From the NCBI GenBank assembly GCA_018902385.1, contig JABSSW010000079.1, positions 62,001-126,000 on the forward strand: a DNA stretch of 64,000 nucleotides, written 5' to 3'. Source of the stretch: Physcia stellaris (lineage: Eukaryota > Ascomycota > Lecanoromycetes > Caliciales > Physciaceae). Shown piece by piece: positions 5,381 to 48,789 of the stretch; the first letter of the stretch is position 1; the number at the start of each line of letters is the position of its first letter. The notes under the pieces were generated by a model. That model made no database searches, was not told the DNA's origin, and worked only from the letters and a program-made list of their open reading frames with translations. The translations under genes were made by a program, and so were the position numbers.

Positions 5381-6113
5381 TATTCCATGATCTGGTGTGA
5401 TGCTATCTTGCCTCCCATGCATCGTCATCGATACACACAACATGATAACACGCTTACCCGTGTTTGGCACAAATCATATGAAAACGACATGAAGACGATG
5501 TGAAGATGACATGAAAACAACATCATTTTCCGATTCTCTTTCAAATCGGGTAATCGTAGATCTGTCAATGTATTCTAAAAGATTACATCTGTATCTACTT
5601 CCTATTTTCTGCATTCCACTCTCTATTTTTCTACACACTCTCTCATGTTCTAATTCTACTTCGCATATTCGCATACTTTGCCCACATTCTCTCTCAAATA
5701 ACAACAACAACAATACTTTCTAATTTTTATCTCTTATTACTTTCACATAAAGGCCGAAATCATTGCATATTCGCGTTTGTATGACACCTTGCTTATGCTC
5801 GTTGTATGCATATGTAAGGTAGTAAGATGATCTGTTCGAGAAGATTGAAAACACTTCATTCGTCAGACGTGCGACACAGCAAATATGTTGAACTGTTTTT
5901 CAATCAAATTCGATGATACAATTCGCGATCACATGAGTATCACATGCGAAACATGCGAAAATCTCATCATCATGATACGAAATAGTTGATATAACTGTAG
6001 GGCTAGGGCATGGGAGTGTGTGTAAAAAAATAGGGGTGAGATGCTGAAAATAGGGAGTGACTGCAGTGAGAACCTTCTAAAAATAGCACCACTTATTACC
6101 AGACCATGGGATA
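5381..6113. mobile_element. MITE copy 1 with about 480 bp of extra internal DNA
   Basis: The left end (TATTCCATGATCTGGT) and right end (ACCAGACCATGGGATA) match the 16-base terminal inverted repeats of the 14109 copy, with two differences on the left. The first about 205 bases align with the short copies, including the CGATTCT..TCGGGTAATCGTAGATCTGTC segment. The final 37 bases, from TAAAAATAGCACC onward, match their right end. Between about 5590 and 6075 lies unrelated A/T-rich sequence absent from the short copies. This copy is either the longer ancestor or a MITE carrying a later insertion. The ends begin and finish with TA, as in Tc1/mariner-type target duplications. Confidence 0.75.
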
Positions 6114-34392: not shown

Positions 34393-36244
34393 ATGCTTGC
34401 ATTCTCTTTTTTATTGCTAGGTCTCTGCCAGTTGGCGGTGGCCAAAGTCGCATATTATGACTGGAGCATAGATTGGGTGTCTGCTGCTCCAGATGGCTTC
34501 ACCAGGCCAGTCATTGGTATCAACGGCCAATGGCCGCCGCCAGAAGTCCACATTGACAAGGGCGACCGCGTGATCGCTCGAGTCTACAATAACTTGGGCA
34601 ATCAGTCGACAGGTATACATTGGCATGGTATCTATCAGAAGGGCAGTCAAAGTATGGACGGGCCTTCTGGGATCACCCAGTGTCCTATTGCGCCCAACGG
34701 AACCTTTACATACGATTTTGAGGTAAGATCAGTCCCAACAATTGGAACTGAAATGGCTGACGAAAGCAAAGGTCAACCAAGCCGGCACATATTGGTACCA
34801 TTCACACAACCAAGGCCAGTACCCGGATGGACTGCGAGCACCGTTCATTGTCCACGATACTTCTGCACCTTTTGCCGGCCAGTTTGACGAGGAGTTCACT
34901 CTGACTATGACCGACTGGTACCACGACGAAATGCCTGTTCTTCTGCACAAGTATCAATCTACTACAGACAAGTCAACAACGGACAATGGTATTACAGCGC
35001 CAATCCCCGATACCGGGTTACTCAATGACCAGGTGGAGCCCAAAATACACATGAAGCCTGGGAAGACCTACCTTGTGCATATGATATGTCACAGCAACTA
35101 TGCCGGTGTGATGATCTGGTTCGAGGGTCACAATTTTACCGTTGTGGAAGTAGATGGCGTCTACACCGAAGCAGCAGACGTCGGAGCTAAGAATATTCGT
35201 CTCGCGCCTGGACAGCGATGGAGTTTCCTCGTAAAGTCGAAGCCTGACACAAGCGCCAACTACGCAATCTTTGCCACACTCGACGTCAATATGTTGTTCC
35301 CTCCGATAGGTCTTCCTTTCTTCGGGTTCGCTGGTAACATGTCTGCATGGCTGGTGTACGATGAAGCCAAGCCGCTTCCTCCAGTACCGACGTTCTACTC
35401 CTTTGACTTCTTCGATGATTGGACTCTCATTCCCTACGATCGTGAGCCGATCCTTGAGCCCGACCATGTCATCGTGATGGACACTGGGTTCGCCAACATC
35501 AACGGCATCGCCCGATCAGTCATAAACAACGTCACGTATCTCACCCAGAAGGTACCTTCGCTGTACACCGCTGCCACCGTCGGCTCGAATTATTCCTCTA
35601 ACCCAGAAGTCTACGGGCAAGTGAATCCCTTCATCCTCAAGTACGGAGAGAACGTTGAGATCATCGTCAACAACAACCACAACAACCTCCACCCATGGCA
35701 CATACACGGCCACGACTTCCAAGTCATACAGCGCGGCGACCCCAATGTCGGTCCCTTCAGCGGCTACTGGACGAATGTATCGTCAACCCCGCTGAAGCGC
35801 GATACCATCATGGCGAACAAGAACTCCAACGTCGTGGTCCGCTTCACAGCCGACAATCCGGGTGTGTGGGCCTTCCATTGCCATATCGAATGGCACATTG
35901 ACTCCGGGCTCATGGCTACATTGATCGAGGCTCCGGACTACATCAGCAACGATGTCCAGATTTCGGGTAGTCAGATCCAAAATTGCAAGGATTACGGAAT
36001 GGGTTATGAGGGCAATGCGGCGGGTAATACCGAGAATCCACTCGATCTGACGGGGTCGAATAGCCAGGTTCAGCAGTATGCTCAGGGGTGAGTCTTTCAT
36101 TTGGAGTCCGATACCGTGAGGGTGAGATCGCTGACATTGGAATATAGGGCGCTCTACCCACCGGGTCAAGACTTTTACAAGCGCAAGCGATCGGTCCCCG
36201 GCGTCTCGCCTTCGCCTAATCACCCCAGGCGGTTGAAGTGGTGA
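34393..36244 (+). CDS. multicopper oxidase, Fet3/laccase type
   Basis: Exons 34393-34722, 34772-36087 and 36148-36244 join in phase and give 580 residues. The ATG at 34393 starts a signal peptide (MLAFSFLLLGLCQLAVA). All four copper-binding motifs are present: HWHG in STGIHWHGIYQ, HSH in GTYWYHSHNQGQ, HPWHIHGHDFQ, and HCHIEWHIDSGL with the type 1 copper cysteine. DWYHDEMP after the second cupredoxin strand resembles Fet3-type ferroxidases. Unlike plasma-membrane Fet3, there is no C-terminal transmembrane helix; the last exon is short and basic (FYKRKRSVPG). The protein is therefore probably secreted, oxidising Fe(II), phenols or a secondary metabolite. No FTR1-type permease lies beside it. 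Confidence 0.88.
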
Positions 36245-38150: not shown

Positions 38151-39162
38151 TTATCCACAGTCATCGGCATTGTCTGACTGTGTGAGCCTGAAGGTGATCA
38201 TGGGGACTCCCCAAGAGGCCCAAGGCGGCGGTCGCAACGACGGCCTAGCTGCCTCCCACTCGAAGAAGGACTTCTCTTCTGCCCAGATGCTTTCTAAATT
38301 GCGTTTGAGTATTGGGCCAAAAAGCTCGGGCGACCTGTCCAGAAACGAAAGGAGTTTAGGACCATCTTCCCATGTGACACGGTAGTCACTCCATGCACCG
38401 CAAATAGATTCATAGATCATATCCACGAGCATCCCTCGAAGCTCATCTGTAACCCGAGAATACTGGTACAACATATCGTATATCATCAGCCTGTGTTCAC
38501 AGGTAGCAGGTCTGATCTGATCGAACAACGTTTTCAAGCGACTGCAACAGTATCGTCGCAAGGCTGGGATGTCGTATTTGTCGCCTAGCTCATATATGAG
38601 GACATGGAAGTTATACAGGGATAGGTAGCATCTATCGTTCATGCATGAGTGTTCATCTTCTTGAAGATGAGTACACCGGTAAAGCTGATGAGAAGGCTGC
38701 TCCTCTGTGAAAAGAAACGTGCTAGGTTCGTTGGCAGGATACGTCGCCGTGTATATATATGCGATCATGGCTTGGACAAGTACTTCATCCTCTTCGATCA
38801 AATGGATAGTCGCGGTACTCTCCTCCTGTATCAGAGGTCAGAACTCGTAATAGATTTATATTCAGCCAGGCAGTAGGCAAAGAATTCGCAGTAGCCATGT
38901 TGTCTTGACACTACGCTATTTCAGCGACGAGATGATAGACTTACCAGAAAACCCTTTCTGCAAGCGGCCGCGAAGAATCCTGATGATGGACATACAATAG
39001 CGCGGTGTACCTTGAAGCTCGAGTCTCCGCATTTGATCGTAAGGTCGCTGTACTCTTCAGAGCAGTGGAGTCTATGACAGTTCATTAGCTTCGAAAGAAT
39101 CGTGCGAGATTCGGACCCCACTTGGCGATTCCATTTGCCAGAAAGTTAGAGTTGTCTCCCAT
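38151..39162 (-). CDS. BTB/POZ protein 1 of a tandem array
   Basis: Exons 39122-39162 (41 bases), 38945-39071 (127) and 38151-38825 join in phase and give 280 residues. After a short N-terminus comes the BTB core, YSDLTIKCGDSSFKVHRAI and VCPSSGFFAAAC. The third exon has the acidic stretch and MIAYIYTATYP, then a Cys/His insert (CTHLQEDEHSCMNDRC). YELGDKYDIPALRRYCCSRL and a FLDRSPELFGPILK tail follow. BTB domains mediate dimerisation or binding to cullin-3; no second domain is present. This copy has a longer C-terminus (EWEAARPSLRPPPW) than its paralogues. Confidence 0.85.
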
Positions 39163-39786: not shown

Positions 39787-39913
39787 TCAAGTAGCCAAAG
39801 AAGCCAGATAATCCTTAATCAACGGACACCCCCCCAAGTCCCAATCCTGCTCAAGCTCCGACTTGAACCTAAAATACCACGGACGCAGCGGATCCACCAG
39901 ATCCGGAGCCCTA
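39787..39913 (-). pseudogene. BTB/POZ gene 2, 3' fragment
   Basis: A minus-strand frame reads APDLVDPLRPWYFRFKSEL and ends DYLASLAT before a stop at 39787. This matches the C-terminal FLxxxPELxxxLLK region of the other BTB paralogues, which the 5' fragment at 44754-45633 lacks. The fragment directly abuts the left edge of the repeat block at 39915. Counted with the third-exon part beyond the block, the host coding length (455 + 127 bases) is a multiple of three. The two pieces are therefore the same gene split by the insertion. Without the fragment the upstream product would read into element sequence and stop. Confidence 0.75.
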
Positions 39914-39914
39914 A

Positions 39915-40078
39915 GCTAATGCTGCGTACTTCCTTCATTGCTATGTACAAAATCCTTGGTGTTTTGGGCATGGCCGGCCTGTAAACAATGATTTTGCAAA
40001 ACAAAATGACTCTGCAAAATCGATCTCGTTGAACAAAATGATTCAACAAAGCAATTTTCAAAATTTAATTATTTTTTT
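39915..40078. repeat. terminal repeat B2 of the YR retroelement
   Basis: Begins GCTAATGCTGCGTACTTCC and matches 40298-40458 along its length. This outer copy keeps GC-rich stretches (GGCATGGCCGGCC), while the inner copy is strongly A+T-shifted. Confidence 0.75.
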
Positions 40079-40170
40079 GTTTTTGCGATTGAATTTTGAA
40101 ACGAAAAAAAATTTTTCAAAAAAAATGAAAACGTCGAAAAAAATTAAAAACAAAAAATGAATGAACGAAC

Positions 40171-40297
40171 AAAAAAAAAACGAAAAATAAAAAATGAAAT
40201 AAATGAAACATTGATTTTTTATTTAATTAAAAAATCATTTTTTTCAAATTTTTTCATTTCGTCATTTTTGCATTAATATTCATATTTAATTTGAACG
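40171..40297. repeat. repeat A2 of the YR retroelement
   Basis: Matches the right-end repeat at 44629-44753, for example ATTGATTTTTTATTTAATT and TTTCATTTCGTCAT. It lies between B2 and B1, as required for split direct repeats. Confidence 0.75.
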
Positions 40298-40458
40298 AAT
40301 TAATGTTGCGTACTTTTCATTGTTATGTACAAAATTTTTGATATTTTGAACATGATCGATTTGTAAACAATGATTTTGCAAAATAAAATGATTTTGCAAA
40401 ATCAATTTCGTTGAACAAAATGATTCAACAAAACAATTTTTAAAATTTAATTATTTTT
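40298..40458. repeat. repeat B1 of the YR retroelement
   Basis: A+T-shifted counterpart of the outer repeat at 39915-40078. Similarity stops where the element body begins, near 40458. Confidence 0.75.
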
Positions 40459-43400
40459 CACAATTTCAAAACACGTCGAAAAACGACGTCGTCGTCAAAA
40501 AACGAAAAAAAAACAATTTAATCGTTTTGATGATATCGCGATGCGTGAAAAATGTATTTTTGTTGTTTTCGATATACAACAAAAACGTTTCGAATTTTCA
40601 TTTTTTAAAAATTTAATTAAATCGTTAAAAACGTTTGCGTTGCGAATTTCAATTGCAACGTTTCGACAAAAAAAATGATTTGAATAATGATTTTCGAATT
40701 TCAAATTCATAATCGCGTTTTGTAATACGATGATGACGTAATTTGCATTGAAAAATTTTGATTGATCGATTTGAAATAAAAAAAAAACGTTGAAACAAAA
40801 AAACGTTCGAAAAAATTGCGTAATGAAATCAACGCACAAACGATATCGTCGATAATCGCAATAAATATCGAAATTTTTTGCGAAATGAATCGATTTTTCA
40901 AACAAAAAACGTCAAAATGAAATAATTATCGAAAAAAATTATCGAAAAACGAATAACGTTTCATTTGTTGAATTCGAAAATACGATCAACATTTGATCAA
41001 ATAAATTCATTTATACGCAAAAAATTTGCAAAAATCAAACAAAATGCGACGTGCAACGTTGCATTTTTTTTGATACGAATATCGAAAAATTGCAAAATAT
41101 TTAACAAAATATCACGAATAATAATTTTTTTTTCACGTTTTTCGTTTTTTTTATATATACGTTTGATTTCATCGATTTCGCGTTGCAACAAAAATTCGTT
41201 AAAAACGTTAAAATCGAAATATTTTCGATTCACGCAAACAAAACGTAATGTCGTGATGTAAATTTTGATAATTTTCGATTTGAATCGTCGTATGTTCAAC
41301 GAATTCATTCAATCGTCGATAACGAAAATGAAAAAAAAAATGTTTGAATGTCATCAAATGCGCAAAATTTCACGTATGATTTGATTACGAAATTGTATGT
41401 TTTGCGAATATTCGAAATCAAATTTCATTACAAAAAGATGTTGTTATTTTGTTCAACGAGATTTGAACGTATCAATATTTTGAAACATCGTCGTTGAATG
41501 CAAAATTTAAATCGAAAATTGATCATGACGAATTTGCAATTATAAATATTCGTCAACGATTTTATCGTGTTCATCACGTGAAAATAAATCAATCAAATGA
41601 TTGAATTTCGAATTTAGTCATTTCATTTCGACAATAATATCGTGAAAAACAAACAACATAACGACGTTTCGAAACGACGTCATTGTCGAATCGTGTATCG
41701 TGTTTTTGATAAATTCAAAACAAACGATTTGATTATCGCAATGAATGATAATTTTGTTATTTTCGAAATGAAATAATCATTGACGCAAAATTTTCAACAC
41801 GATTCGCATTTTTTTGATTTGAATATCGAACATGCGATTACGATAACGAATTGAATATCGTAAATTGAATTTTTCGAAAGATTTATTTTGACGATTTCGA
41901 AATCAGAAATTTTTTATGTTTCAATTGTTTGAAACATTTGTTCAAATATAATTCGAAAATCGAAACGAAATCGTTCGCAAAATTTTAACGTCGTTTTATT
42001 AAAATAAAAACGTTTGTCATCATTGCAAATTCAAACGTATTGTTTCGATAATTTTGCAAAATTTGTTGACGTTTCGAATTCGATTTCGAACGATATAAAA
42101 TGAAATGAAAAAAAAACGTTTCAAAATGACGATTTTCGTGCAAAATGACAAAAAATTCACGAAAAAATCGATTTGACGATACGTTAAAAATTTTTTGATA
42201 AAAATTTCGTTAACAAATTTCATTGTTTTCGTCAATTTTGTTGAAAAAAATTTGATTTTCATGATTTCGTTATCGAATTCGATGTTTAAAAATTCGAATT
42301 TCGTATCAAATTTTTTTTTTTCGTTTGTTTCGAAATCGAAATTTTTACAAATATTTTGTCACATTTTTTTAAATGATTTCGAATTCGTGAAAAATTTCAT
42401 AATAATCAAAAAATCGTTTAAATAATGAAAAATTATGCGAAATTCGCAAATTTCGATCAAAATTTAATGCAACGTTTTAACAAATAAATCGAATAAAAAA
42501 ACAATACGTAAATCGAACGATAAAAACAATTTCATATAATACATTTTCATTCATTTGAAATCGAATAATCAACGATTCAAAAAAATCATCGAAACGTATT
42601 TGAACGCATTGACGAATTTTTTTGAACATAACAATATCACGTTTTTGAAATATGAATATCGCAATGATTTTATCGAACGTGACGTATTTCAAAATTTTTG
42701 CATTTTCAATGATATTTTCATTGATTAAATCATTTTTGAAATACGAAAATCGTGAATACGTTTTCATTCGTCGTCGTGTTTGAATATCAAATCTAAAAAT
42801 GAACAAAAATGTGAAAAAAAAAACATTTTTGACATTCGTTGAACAATTCGTTGCTTGTTGAAATCGACAATGAATATATTTGAAATTTCGTTGATCGAAC
42901 GATGATTGATAAAAACGAAAAATTTTTTGTTTTCGATATATTCGACGTTCGCGTTTCGTTTAATAATGTTAAACAATTTCGAAACAAAATGTTGATCGAA
43001 ATGTTTGAACAAATAAAATTTTCATGTTTTGATTTTCAATGACATTTTGATTTCAAAATCGAAAAAATTGTCGAAAACGACGTTATATAAAAGTTTTTCG
43101 ACGATCATTCGATTGACGTCGACATGATCATTTTTGAAAAATAAAAAAAAAAAAAAAAAAATCAAAATTTAAAAAAGCATCGATCAATCATTTGACGATT
43201 TTGATATCGAAACATTCGAATTTGTTATAATTTGATTATTGACATTTAATGCAAACATGTTTTTATTTGCAAAATTCAAATTCGTAACGATTGTTGTTAT
43301 TGAACGCGTGACAAATTTCGTTATTAATTATTAAACGATCGAATTTTTTTTTGATCGTGCGTGAAATGAAAAACGATTGTGAATTCGTCGATTTTTGATT

Positions 43401-44628
43401 GAATTCGATGACGACGATATTTTTGAACATTTATTCGACAATATCATGTTTGATAATTTAATTGATTGCGATATTTTAATCAATACGTATAATTCGAATT
43501 AAATTTTTTTTATGTCAAATCAAAATCGATAATCACGTTTTGTAATTGTATGTTTTCAAAATGCGAAAACGATATTGATTTATAACGTAAATCAATTCGT
43601 ATCGTATGTTCGAATGAACGAAATCGAACACGATATTGCAATACATTTTCAATGACGTCAACAAAAATGAAAAATTTTTAAAAATTTTTGCACGAAAATC
43701 GACAAAAACATTAAACGTTAATTAAAAAAAAATTTCGAAATTTTTTTGAATTTCAACATGTCGTTATACACGTTTTTGAACAAACGTAACGACACGTTAA
43801 AATATTTTTTTTCAATTTTCGAATGATCGAAATTGTTGTTCAACAAAAAATTCGTACGAATTTTCGTCGTGAACGCAAAAATGAAAATTTAAAAATTCGA
43901 TAAATTAAAATATGAATTGATCAAATCGTGCGTAAAAAACACGTTTTGAAAATAAAAATTTTGAAAATCGAACGCAAAAAACACGACGAACAAAAAATAA
44001 AAAAATATAAAAAAAAAACAATATACGTTGAATAACGAAATTGATGTTCAATTGTTTTTTCATTTTTTTGATTTTCAATTGACGACGAAAATCAACATGA
44101 TATTTTTTTAAATTTTGAATTTTTGTCGTTTTCGAACGTGATCGTCGAATTTGAAATTGATCGAATGCGTCGTTGTCGTTTACGTCGATGAATTCGAAAT
44201 CGTCGTGAACGTCGAAATCGTCGAAATTTTCGATTTGATTTTCGAAATATTCAAATGAAAAAAAAATTTTGCGACGAAAATTGACGAATTTTTGAAAAAA
44301 CGAACGTTTCGAAATGAAATGAAAACGTGTATTTTTGTCAATTCGAATACGATTTTTATTTCGAATGTGATTCGTTTGCGAACAATTTGTTTGAATTTAA
44401 ATCATCGTTGTCATTGACTTTTTTGATGACAACGACATTGTTTTTGTTTGAAACGAAATTGAATTTGATGTTCATATTGCGACGACGAAAAAACAATGAA
44501 ATTGAATTTTAATTATGTCGAACGAAATGTTACATCAAAAAATGTGCGAAAATCGAAAAATTGAAATATATTATATCAAAAATTGATGTAAAAATTTTTA
44601 CAATTGACTTTTGCAAGTATTTGCAAAA

Positions 44629-44753
44629 GAAAAAACGAAAAATGGGAAATGAAATGAATGAGGCATTGATTTTTTATTTAATTAGAAAATCAGCCTTTTC
44701 AAGTTTTTTTCATTTCGTCATCCCTGCATTAGCATCCATGTCTAGCCTGGACG
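44629..44753. repeat. repeat A1 (outer right end) of the YR retroelement
   Basis: Counterpart of 40171-40297, less mutated, ending CATTAGCATCCATGTCTAGC then CTGGACG at the junction with the BTB gene. Confidence 0.75.
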
Positions 44754-45633
44754 ACCAAAAACTCATAAAACTCCGGCCGACATCTCAAATTCGAAGTCAT
44801 GAAACTATCCTCGATCTCTCCAACCAGAATCTTCCGGAACTCGTCGTTCGTGCGAGAGGTCTCGTAGAGCGCTTGCAGAACATCCAGGCTTAGCGTCCAG
44901 TCTTTCTCTTTGAGGTACGCGTAGGGATAGTCGAGGTCGACGCGGAGTCGCAAGCAGGCGTAGATTCGGAGGCCCGGGATGTCGTATTTGTCGCCCATGG
45001 TGTATAGTGCGATGTCGAAACCGTAGATCCAGCGGTGGCATGAAGGGTCGTTGCAAGAGTGTGCTTCTCCTTCTGGGTGGTCGCAATGGCCACGTTTTCT
45101 CTCTTCATAGTTGCTTATTTGACAGCGGGTCGTGTAGAGGAATTGGATCATGGCTTGAACGAGGTAATCTGTTTCTTCATGTAGTTCGATTGTAGATGTT
45201 CTGTCTTCCTGTGTGTTGCGAGTAGGTATTAGAATGCTTCTATGACCGCGATTGATAATGACGACTGCTTACTATATAGTTGTTTCTGCAAGCAGCTGCG
45301 AAGAATTTTGATTGGGTGCCTTTGTGCAGTACAGCGTCAGGTAAGACTTCAGCAGAGGTCGCCCTTGGAAGACTTACAGACAATAGCCTTGTGGACCTTG
45401 AACTTGCTGTCTCCGCAAATAATTGTGAGATCGCTATACTCTTCAGAGCCGTAAAGTCTAACAGAAGGTGTCAGGCTGGACTTGGCTCGGAAGGTCCGAT
45501 CTTACTTGGAGACGCCGACCACTAACGAGCTTTCCCGATGCGTCCTAACAGCAGTATATTCTTGAGACTCTTCGGATAGAGTAGTGGACGTTGGGATATT
45601 TGTAGAATCTCGAAGACAAACTGATGGCAACAT
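44754..45633 (-). pseudogene. BTB/POZ gene 2, 5' fragment, split by retroelement
   Basis: Exons 45506-45633, 45378-45457, 45273-45319 and a third coding block from 45208 down to the element edge at 44754 join in phase. The core reads YSDLTIICGDSKFKVHKAI, then FFAAACRNNYI, MIQFLYTTRC, a Cys/His insert (CDHPEGEAHSCNDPSC) and MGDKYDIPGLRIYACLRL. The 127-base exon of the paralogues is divided here into 80 + 47 by an extra 58-base intron (45320-45377). The N-terminal exon is longer than in the other copies. The frame enters the element at 44753 and would end a few codons into it, losing the conserved PEL tail found at 39787-39913. Both halves are otherwise open. Confidence 0.8.
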
Positions 45634-46012: not shown

Positions 46013-46856
46013 TCATTTTGGCATTACAGTGGATGAGGGGATTTTCAATTCCATTTTAAGCAATGGAACTCCGAGCTCCGGTGATTGCTCGAGGAAGATT
46101 CCGAATGCAGTCCCCATCAGTAACGTCTTACGACATTCTCCGCTCAATGCTTCGTGAATTCGATTAAGAACCAGTTTACGGAGGTCATCAGAGTTCCGTG
46201 AGTGTTCGTAAGCCATCTTCCATATTGCCAAGTCCAGTCCCCAGTGCCAAAGGTCGATACATTTGAAAAGCTCTTCAAGGTGTGCGCAGGAATATTTTCT
46301 CAGACCCGGAATATCATACTTGTCGCCCAAAGTATGCATAGCAATTGCAATACCGAAGGGTTTCAAACAGCAGTCGTTGAGGTTAAATGAGCACTCAATA
46401 TCATCTGTATGATTACATCCACCTTTCCGCCCCATCATGATGCTGCTGTTCACGTCTGGACTGAGGTACTTGGCGGTGTAAAAGTACTCGATCATGACTT
46501 GTACAAGCTCCTCATGTTCCTCATGAAGCTCTATAATAGCTGTGCTCCCTTCCTGAAACCCATGTCAGCACGTCCATTGTCCCACCCTTTCCAGGATAAC
46601 CTGGACGATACCTTGAAGCCCTCTTTACAGGCGGCCTTGAAAAACCCTGACTGCGAACAAACAACCACTCGATGTACAGGGAATCTGGCCTGGCCACAGA
46701 CAATTGTGAGGTCGCTGTATTCGCCAGACCTCAAATTTCTGCATTTTGTGTTAACAACATCTCCTCTTCAGGAGTCTAATTCTTACTTAACAAGCCCATC
46801 TCTAAGTACGTCTTGTTGTTGCGCCTGCTCGTGGTCGACGGGCTTGAGAAATTCAT
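46013..46856 (-). CDS. BTB/POZ protein 3 of a tandem array
   Basis: Exons 46810-46856 (47 bases), 46612-46738 (127) and 46013-46552 join in phase and give 237 residues. Core motifs: LRSGEYSDLTIVCGQARF, VVVCSQSGFFKAACKEGFK, MIEYFYTAKY, MHTLGDKYDIPGLRKYSC and FLEQSPELGVPLLKMEL. The insert between the second helix pair has CNHTDDIECSFNLNDCC, a variant of the paralogues' Cys/His motif. The first exon is inferred from the phase-2 junction shared with the other copies. An alternative donor 17 bases downstream does not fit the phase. Confidence 0.78.
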
Positions 46857-47961: not shown

Positions 47962-48789
47962 TCACAGCTCAACGTCCTGTTCAAGTTTGAAAGGATCTTC
48001 AGTGCACTTTTCCCAATGCTCCGAATACCACCGTAATGTAATCTTGAGCAAAGCGCACGTGAGCTCCGGCACTTCCTCAAGGAATTCTAAAAAGCCACTA
48101 TAGTCGACAATTTCCGTATTTGATAATTCGTCGCATACCGTTTTCAATACAACGGCTCGAAGTTCGTCTGATTTACGCGAGTGCCTATATGCCAATGCCC
48201 ATACTTTGATATCATGGTTCAGATACCTGGGCCCCGCTTCAATGAACATTTTCTTGATGTATGCACTGGAGTAAGTCATCAGACCTGGGATAAGATATTT
48301 ATCTCCCATGGCGTAAAGGGAGATTGCGATGCCGTAAGATCTCAGATAACATCTCTTGTCGTCGCACGAGCAATCTGTGTCTTCTGGGTGATTGCATGGT
48401 AAACGTTCGGTGAGCCCATCGTACTCATCAGTGTACATCGTGGTGTACAGATACTCGACCATAAGACGGACAAGCTCTTCATCCTCCTCTTGTAGTTCTA
48501 TGGTACCGGTGCTTGTTTCCTGTATTCAATATCAGAGAAGACATCTTCCATCTGAAAAGGATTTGTGCTCCAACCTTAAACCCCTCTTTGCACGCAGCGC
48601 TGAAGAATCCTGATTGGGGGCAGACGATGGCTCGGTGCACTTTAAACTCGGATTTCCCGCACACTATGGTAAGGTCGCTGTAATCGCCAGAGTCTTTGAT
48701 CCTGACCAACATGTCAGTCTTAAGCCTGAGTGGGATCTAGCACCTTACCGAGCGAGGCTTTCATTTAAGTTTGACGTTTGTTGCGCCAT
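47962..48789 (-). CDS. BTB/POZ protein 4 of a tandem array
   Basis: Exons 48749-48789 (41 bases), 48575-48701 (127) and 47962-48519 join in phase and give 241 residues. Reads MAQQTSNLNESLAR, SGDYSDLTIVCGKSEFKVH, CPQSGFFSAACKEGFK and MVEYLYTTMY. Then come a clean insert CNHPEDTDCSCDDKRC with four spaced cysteines and a histidine, MGDKYLIPGLMTYSSAY and FLEEVPELTCALLK. The structure is almost identical to BTB gene 1 (same 41- and 127-base exons), so I take it as the ancestral form of the array. Confidence 0.85.

Follow-up and report, generated by a model that had tools for sequence, protein, structure and literature searches.

What had an apparently featureless A+T-rich block in the genome of the lichen fungus Physcia stellaris (Lecanoromycetes, Caliciales) once been, and what made it so poor in G and C? 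The block lies in a stretch of 64,000 nucleotides (hereafter the window) of contig JABSSW010000079.1, assembly GCA_018902385.1, positions 62,001 to 126,000 of the forward strand. A first-pass annotation, made from the letters alone, had proposed a strict architecture for it, namely that of a Ngaro/PAT-type tyrosine-recombinase (YR) retrotransposon ruined by repeat-induced point mutation (RIP). Our analysis indicates that it is very probably a dead member of a multi-copy family of Ngaro-type YR retrotransposons and that, after insertion, it underwent a RIP-like loss of C before pyrimidine. The GC content drops from about 46% to 24-27% across the element, and intervals of 300 bp that are poor in CpC and CpT span 39901 to 44700; block and element coincide, as had been proposed. 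The parts of the element are listed below in window coordinates (L numbers denote genomic loci and P numbers related proteins; RT, reverse transcriptase).

39915..44754, minus strand: whole fossil Ngaro-type element, 4,840 bp; left end TCGTCCAGG..., right end ...GCATTAGC
44629..44754, minus strand: repeat A1, outer, lightly mutated (local alignment and copy comparison)
40459..44628, strand not applicable: body, with CpC 0, CpT 12, CpA 470 and CpG 602, both strands summed
43905..44396, minus strand: probable gag relic, a 163-codon open stretch that resembles by eye the first open stretch of L027
41513..43174, minus strand: RT-RNase H relic (tblastn with P0014 and P0008), with tryptophan codons turned to stops
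40430..41436, minus strand: tyrosine-recombinase relic (tblastn with P0001 and P0004), with broken frames
40299..40458, minus strand: repeat B1, inner, heavily mutated; the recombinase-tail similarity of P0002 extends into it
40171..40298, minus strand: repeat A2, inner, heavily mutated; where it meets B1, the two element ends are joined head to tail
39915..40078, minus strand: repeat B2, outer, lightly mutated (local alignment and copy comparison)

Read in minus orientation, the element has the order A1-body-B1-A2-B2, in which B1 abuts A2, and A2 and B2 are separated by a gap of 92 bp. Local alignment of A1 with A2 gave a score of 74 and that of B1 with B2 a score of 114, far above the maxima of 21 and 22, respectively, obtained from 500 dinucleotide shuffles. 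The repeat pattern and its orientation had been recognized correctly in the first-pass annotation and its positions were right to within one base: B2 and the starts of A2 and A1 were retained, B1 was moved from 40298 to 40299 and the end of A1 from 44753 to 44754. The ends of A1 (44754) and A2 (40298) and the start of B1 (40299) were set in this way since the element includes one terminal T. The left end was T-CGTCC or T-CGTTC in all 20 copies compared (the window and 19 loci), and the right end was CATTA, followed by GC or a C-to-T/G-to-A form of GC, in 12 copies. Comparison of copies also showed that the inner B1-A2 join consists of both element ends fused head to tail, that no target-site duplication is visible and that the target sequence is not fixed.

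Further copies are present in the host genome, of which 43.97 Mb in 147 contigs were searched (the available part of the published P. stellaris genome report gives a draft of 46.57 Mb in 184 scaffolds). DNA queries made from the A1 and B2 ends found 46 and 41 matches, respectively, with 40 candidates scored in each case and with inner and outer repeats of one copy counted separately. For copy comparison, 20 further loci were taken from the genome. All four repeats, arranged as A1-body-B1-A2-B2, were identified in 11 loci (L022, L026-L029 and L033-L038), and the full set was not found inside the stretch taken in the remaining nine. The 12 complete copies (the window and these 11) are 4.75-5.03 kb long. 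When L033-L038 were set against L022, L026-L029 and the window, their B repeats matched those of the window only piecewise, and several of their recombinase relics were nearer to P0004; the two groups are probably two subfamilies. In addition, L023 (C79:34000-43000), which is on the same contig as the window but outside it, carries the A1 end of another copy.

The first-pass annotation had also described RT-like and then YR-like remnants in the body, and both were recovered on the minus strand, RT-RNase H at 43174-41513 and YR at about 41436-40430. The database relatives P0014 and P0008 matched the window by tblastn at 43174-42467 (52% identity, E 1.8e-71) and 42622-41513 (73% identity), respectively. 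The HYLxDF motif of the RT relatives presumably belongs to a reverse transcriptase, and the conserved segment after the RT, which has a DNQ string in the relatives, may be RNase H. Further downstream, P0001 matched at 41338-40499 (52% identity, E 2.4e-76) and P0004 at 41326-40556 (46% identity, E 5.1e-59), and the YR relic of L027 was 72% identical to P0001 (E 2.3e-104). The relics are identified as YR because the relative P0004, which maps to the window, matches integrase profiles: PF00589 at E 0.0033, which is below the Pfam cut-off, and PHROG integrases at E 4.3e-5 and 5.1e-4. In the three copies checked by hand (L022, L029 and L035) the YR frame had the same offset from the RT frame, which suggests that YR was a separate frame. 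With regard to gag, a CX2CX4HX4C zinc knuckle was identified downstream of the first open stretch in 7 of the 12 copies and in none of 200 mononucleotide shuffles of L027; it was not found in the window copy or in four others of the 12.

It should be noted that several results on these relics weigh against the identification. P0004 was the sole PF00589 match among six relatives and the sole PHROG match among three, and the YR relics of the window and of other Physcia copies had no Pfam or PHROG match of their own. RVT_1 matched three of six core RT fragments weakly (E 0.038, 0.18 and 0.86, all below the curated cut-off), and matched neither the window fragment nor four longer relics. A profile of the RT relic did not match three other RTs of the genome, a control with the YR alignment likewise giving no match, and no RNase H profile match was obtained. 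In three copies a sequence resembling the knuckle also occurred on the other strand, interrupted by a stop. AlphaFold models of the YR and RT relatives were too poor for fold searches (mean predicted local distance difference test scores of 34 and 43). In the profile searches that the first-pass annotation had suggested as a check, YR was matched through a relative, and RT stayed below threshold. A search of the host genome with PF00589 gave no match, probably since the recombinases of this genome are too mutated for it. Pfam scans of whole forward frames of L027 and L035 and NCBIfam searches returned nothing, and PDB profile searches nothing of use.

According to the fungal survey PMC3783388, Ngaro elements in fungi have A-pol-B-A-B repeats, RT, RNase H and YR and are without a methyltransferase; by this description the element is very probably a Ngaro. 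In the window, the RNase H similarity ends at about 41513 and the YR similarity starts at about 41436 (about 41506 with P0006), a gap of less than 100 bp, which leaves no room for a methyltransferase and favors Ngaro rather than PAT or DIRS. A DIRS- or PAT-type element would have the same enzymes (RT, RNase H and YR), and PAT elements also have split repeats, together with a methyltransferase. Nevertheless, such an origin is very improbable, considering that the element ends are not inverted repeats, that the direct A-body-B-A-B order is the one given for Ngaro and that a methyltransferase has no space between the RNase H and YR similarities. DIRS was rejected on two counts, as neither inverted terminal repeats nor a methyltransferase was seen. 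Of the double name in the first-pass annotation, the Ngaro part is borne out by the split direct repeats in the window and 11 of the 20 further loci and by the gag, RT-RNase H and YR relics in order, and PAT fits less well on account of its methyltransferase. That another transposon class (long terminal repeat (LTR) retrotransposon, Helitron or Crypton) or chance repeats in A+T-rich DNA should account for the block is scarcely conceivable: Pfam yields little and the TC... termini resemble a Helitron 5' end, but Helitrons habitually insert between A and T, whereas insertion here is not restricted to such sites and leaves no target duplication, and the shuffle controls contradict chance repeats. 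Crypton did not fit the RT relic, and an LTR element differs in repeat order. Transposition of the Ngaro-type element would have involved reverse transcription into a circular form, and insertion of the circle may have been the work of the element's own YR.

How the copies were mutated can be read from their dinucleotides. On the plus strand of the window body we counted CC 0, GG 0, CT 4 and AG 8 versus CA 209, TG 261 and CG 301. A survey of 584 intervals of 500 bp from 43 sequences (L001-L008 omitted as overlapping; the overlap of L041 and L042 counted twice) showed the same trend. Intervals with a GC content of 0.22-0.27 contained on average 0.2 CpC, 13 CpT, 117 CpA, 119 CpG and 111 TpA per kb, compared with 86, 133, 139, 99 and 100, respectively, at a GC content of 0.44-0.50. 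Below 35% GC, CpC was at most 8 per kb in 304 of the 320 intervals (11 of the 16 exceptions were placed over an element end) and CpA was below 80 per kb in only 5 of the 320; CpG and TpA were not lowered in low-GC intervals, and most mutated intervals lie at 22-32% GC. When the 12 copies were compared in pairs, 79-96% of the C sites that precede a pyrimidine were polymorphic for C/T; the share was 19% for C followed by A and 13% for C followed by G. Sorted by the preceding base, the proportion of pair-sites before a pyrimidine that differed was 80-89% where A, G or T preceded and 38% (71 sites) where C preceded; before a purine it was 3-16%.

The pattern extends to other repeats. Five mutated RT loci (L013 and L015-L018) had 0-3 CpC, 123-146 CpA and 115-119 CpG per kb, compared with 90-116, 128-145 and 103-133, respectively, in the intact RT loci L009-L012. 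The sixth mutated RT locus, L014, was milder (27 CpC per kb), and all six had 121-146 CpA and 115-135 CpG per kb. Among eight DDE_3 loci, CpC was absent from the core in five and amounted to 55-97 per kb in three. The copies of the Ngaro-type element span a graded range of mutation. Within them, A1 exceeded A2 in the density of CpY (Y, pyrimidine) in 10 of 12 copies, and B2 exceeded B1 in 11 of 12. Averaged over 21 copies, CpY stood at 5.8 per 50 bp at the A1 end and did not exceed 1.5 more than 150 bp away from it. L022, L036 and L038 are flanked on both sides by host DNA with 20-26 CpY per 100 bp; the surroundings of L028 and L035 are mutated, and those of the remaining six of the 11 copies are mixed.

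Premature stops reflect the same preference. Among the 150 best of 527 RT matches in the genome, 140 contained stops, which comprised 250 TGA, 33 TAA and 3 TAG (286 in total), and a hand count in 23 DDE_3 matches gave 47 TGA, 6 TAA and 2 TAG. The RT-RNase H relics of four copies were aligned with three relatives as reference: of 43 alignment cells for which the relatives have tryptophan, 42 held a stop. Such a change of TGG to TGA is what would be expected if CpC is the target. Since stops arise mainly from TGG, frames die at tryptophans, and indices based on TpA are blind to mutation at CpY. The usual RIP thresholds (TpA/ApT of at least 0.89 and (CpA+TpG)/(ApC+GpT) of at most 1.03) flagged none of the 328 intervals below 0.38 GC and 13 of the 256 above. 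Thus, standard index thresholds can miss heavy RIP.

On the basis of these results, we consider it likely that P. stellaris has a pyrimidine-directed RIP, which targets CpC and CpT, spares CpA and CpG, and kills mainly via tryptophan codons. After insertion, a repeat-directed process would have turned C to T before pyrimidines on both strands, CpC being hit most completely and then CpT, with CpA and CpG largely spared; most likely this was RIP by a RID/Masc1-type cytosine methyltransferase with a changed 3'-neighbour preference. Three cytosine methyltransferase genes (PF00145) were found, in L039 (C6), L040 (C3) and L041 (C5). Judging from motifs, we take one to be DIM-2-like and two to be RID/Masc1-like, one with EQT and one with EET in place of ENV. 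EQT, presumably a mark of RID/Masc1, occurs as EQTSG in L041 and in 92 of the 120 relatives listed. The name RID was borne by no relative among the RID-like protein matches listed, and a Physcia-specific change of the PCQ motif was not seen in the RID-like protein, as SPPCQFFSDAHT was present in at least 82 of the 120 relatives.

Several points speak against a pyrimidine-directed RIP or limit it. As in RIP, C-to-T and G-to-A changes occur on both strands and in repeats; however, a preference for CpA is lacking, and CpA and TpA remain near the host level. The RT loci L010 and L011, although 94.9% identical, are open-framed and almost unmutated, with a slight CpY excess (8% vs 5-6%). Because the CpA preference is missing and these two loci escaped, we call the mutation RIP-like and pyrimidine-directed, with a RID-type enzyme as its presumed agent; its dependence on homology is suggested by where it occurs. 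The surveyed loci were selected for their similarity to transposons rather than drawn at random from the genome. CpA was 12-16% lower in the commonest low-GC intervals than at 44-50% GC, and together with the 19% of CpA and 13% of CpG pair-sites that differ this means that sparing is strong but perhaps incomplete. Finally, of 63 stops compared, 12 fell at columns without tryptophan (8 of them in L035, part of whose reading seems out of frame) and 9 where the relatives vary between tryptophan and another residue. The 'RIP-ruined' label of the first-pass annotation holds for the kind of change (C-to-T, both strands, repeats); the departure from the dinucleotide preference of canonical RIP had gone unnoticed there.

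Two other causes were considered. The loss of CpY might represent slow decay of methylated CpY in silenced repeats, through a DIM-2-like or a second class-I enzyme, instead of RIP in the sexual cycle. The presence of three DNA methyltransferase genes would suit such decay, and the graded mutation between copies fits it as well. We nevertheless regard it as unlikely, because the near-total loss of CpC inside the element bounds, with the outer ends escaping, resembles RIP based on pairing, and because decay of methylated DNA favors CpG, which is kept here. A cytidine deaminase acting on single strands, outside any methyltransferase pathway, is highly improbable as the mutator: C-to-T changes in a CC context are known for such enzymes, but the changes observed depend chiefly on the 3' neighbour and affect both strands, as the counts in the window body show.

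The element interrupts a gene near its 3' end, within the following cluster.

38283-39073, 39790-39914 with 44755-45268, 46031-46740 and 48019-48522, minus strand: BTB-family gene cluster, with PF00651 in two upstream exons

The split gene is 39790-39914 with 44755-45268. Joining the host flanks at the element ends restores an open frame of 213 codons with the junction at codon 171, and three paralogs in the window (38828-38283, 48522-48019 and 46555-46031, minus strand) align across the junction with 33.5-34.9% identity; a fourth match (50232-49816) stops short of it. As the joined flanks are in frame and paralogs align across the join, the element was inserted into the 3' part of a BTB-family gene without target-site duplication. 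BTB/POZ (PF00651) was detected in the upstream exons of two paralogs (E 1.6e-8 and 6.2e-7), and Pfam gave no BTB match in the C-terminal stretches of these genes. The window also contains a multicopper oxidase gene (34742-36091, plus strand), a cytochrome P450 gene (3113-4657, minus strand) and another A+T-rich dip at 5501-6000 (about 35% GC, 18 CpC per kb), which may be an old repeat that was mutated in part. Scanning the window with Rfam (gathering threshold) and for tRNAs gave no match.

Compared with fungal Ngaro elements as described in PMC3783388, the Physcia element is alike in its repeats, YR and missing methyltransferase and probably also in RT and RNase H. That 2013 survey gives only one truncated copy in Ascomycota, from Neosartorya fischeri, whereas Physcia has many copies, 12 of them with complete repeats and all heavily mutated. 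In Zymoseptoria tritici, likewise an ascomycete, one complete Ngaro family accounts for 0.06% of the genome in the passages available from PMC4502367; it belongs to a different class of fungi, and the likeness to Physcia is one of description, not of sequence. Ngaro was also counted in three of four Sporothrix species (PMC9281073, in part), and a table in PMC7181583 has one entry for it. With Physcia, a lichen-forming species joins the few Ascomycota for which we found Ngaro reported.

Fungal genomes are shaped by RIP, for which CpA is usually assumed to be the preferred target. As excerpted from PMC5496416, the order in Neurospora crassa is CpA>CpT>CpG>CpC, and in Trichoderma reesei CpA and CpG come about equally first, with CpT above CpC. 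N. crassa and Physcia are alike in C-to-T changes on both strands and in repeats, and Physcia has a RID-like gene; however, N. crassa prefers CpA and affects CpC least, whereas Physcia loses CpC and CpT and largely keeps CpA and CpG, so that the order is inverted. Predominance of CpT together with CpA has been described for Magnaporthe oryzae and one Botrytis cinerea strain (PMC4352252, main text). CpT is a main target there, as in Physcia, and RID is present, with the RID-like gene as its putative counterpart in Physcia, but CpA is also a target there and CpC is unmentioned in that main text, whereas in Physcia CpA is largely spared and CpC most depleted. CpT increases alongside CpA in the available account of RIPCAL, CpA and CpT are named for Anisogramma (PMC10998396, in part), and CpT to TpT was dominant in alignments of RIP-capable controls in the part consulted of an Ascomycota survey (PMC7882544). 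If a genome has lost its CpC and CpT but kept CpA and CpG, as Physcia would have, a comparison of RID-type enzymes could be used to test what determines RIP specificity. Clutterbuck 2011 is reportedly the main comparative paper on RIP contexts. No CpC-first, CpA-sparing RIP was found in the literature searched, in which Clutterbuck 2011 was covered via its mentions in PMC4188875 and PMC4352252, and the results section of the P. stellaris genome report does not treat RIP or transposons. Another lichen fungus, Cladonia rangiformis (PMC12542154), has strong RIP, RID and DIM-2, to which the heavy RIP-like mutation and the putative RID-like and DIM-2-like genes of Physcia would correspond; dinucleotide terms were not found in the main text of that paper. 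Its mutated fraction has a local peak at about 16% GC, compared with mostly 22-32% in Physcia, and this lower peak hints, from the text available, at broader targets in C. rangiformis. If a pyrimidine-directed RIP does operate in Physcia, RIP of this kind may have escaped notice in other lichen fungi, being invisible to TpA-based indices.

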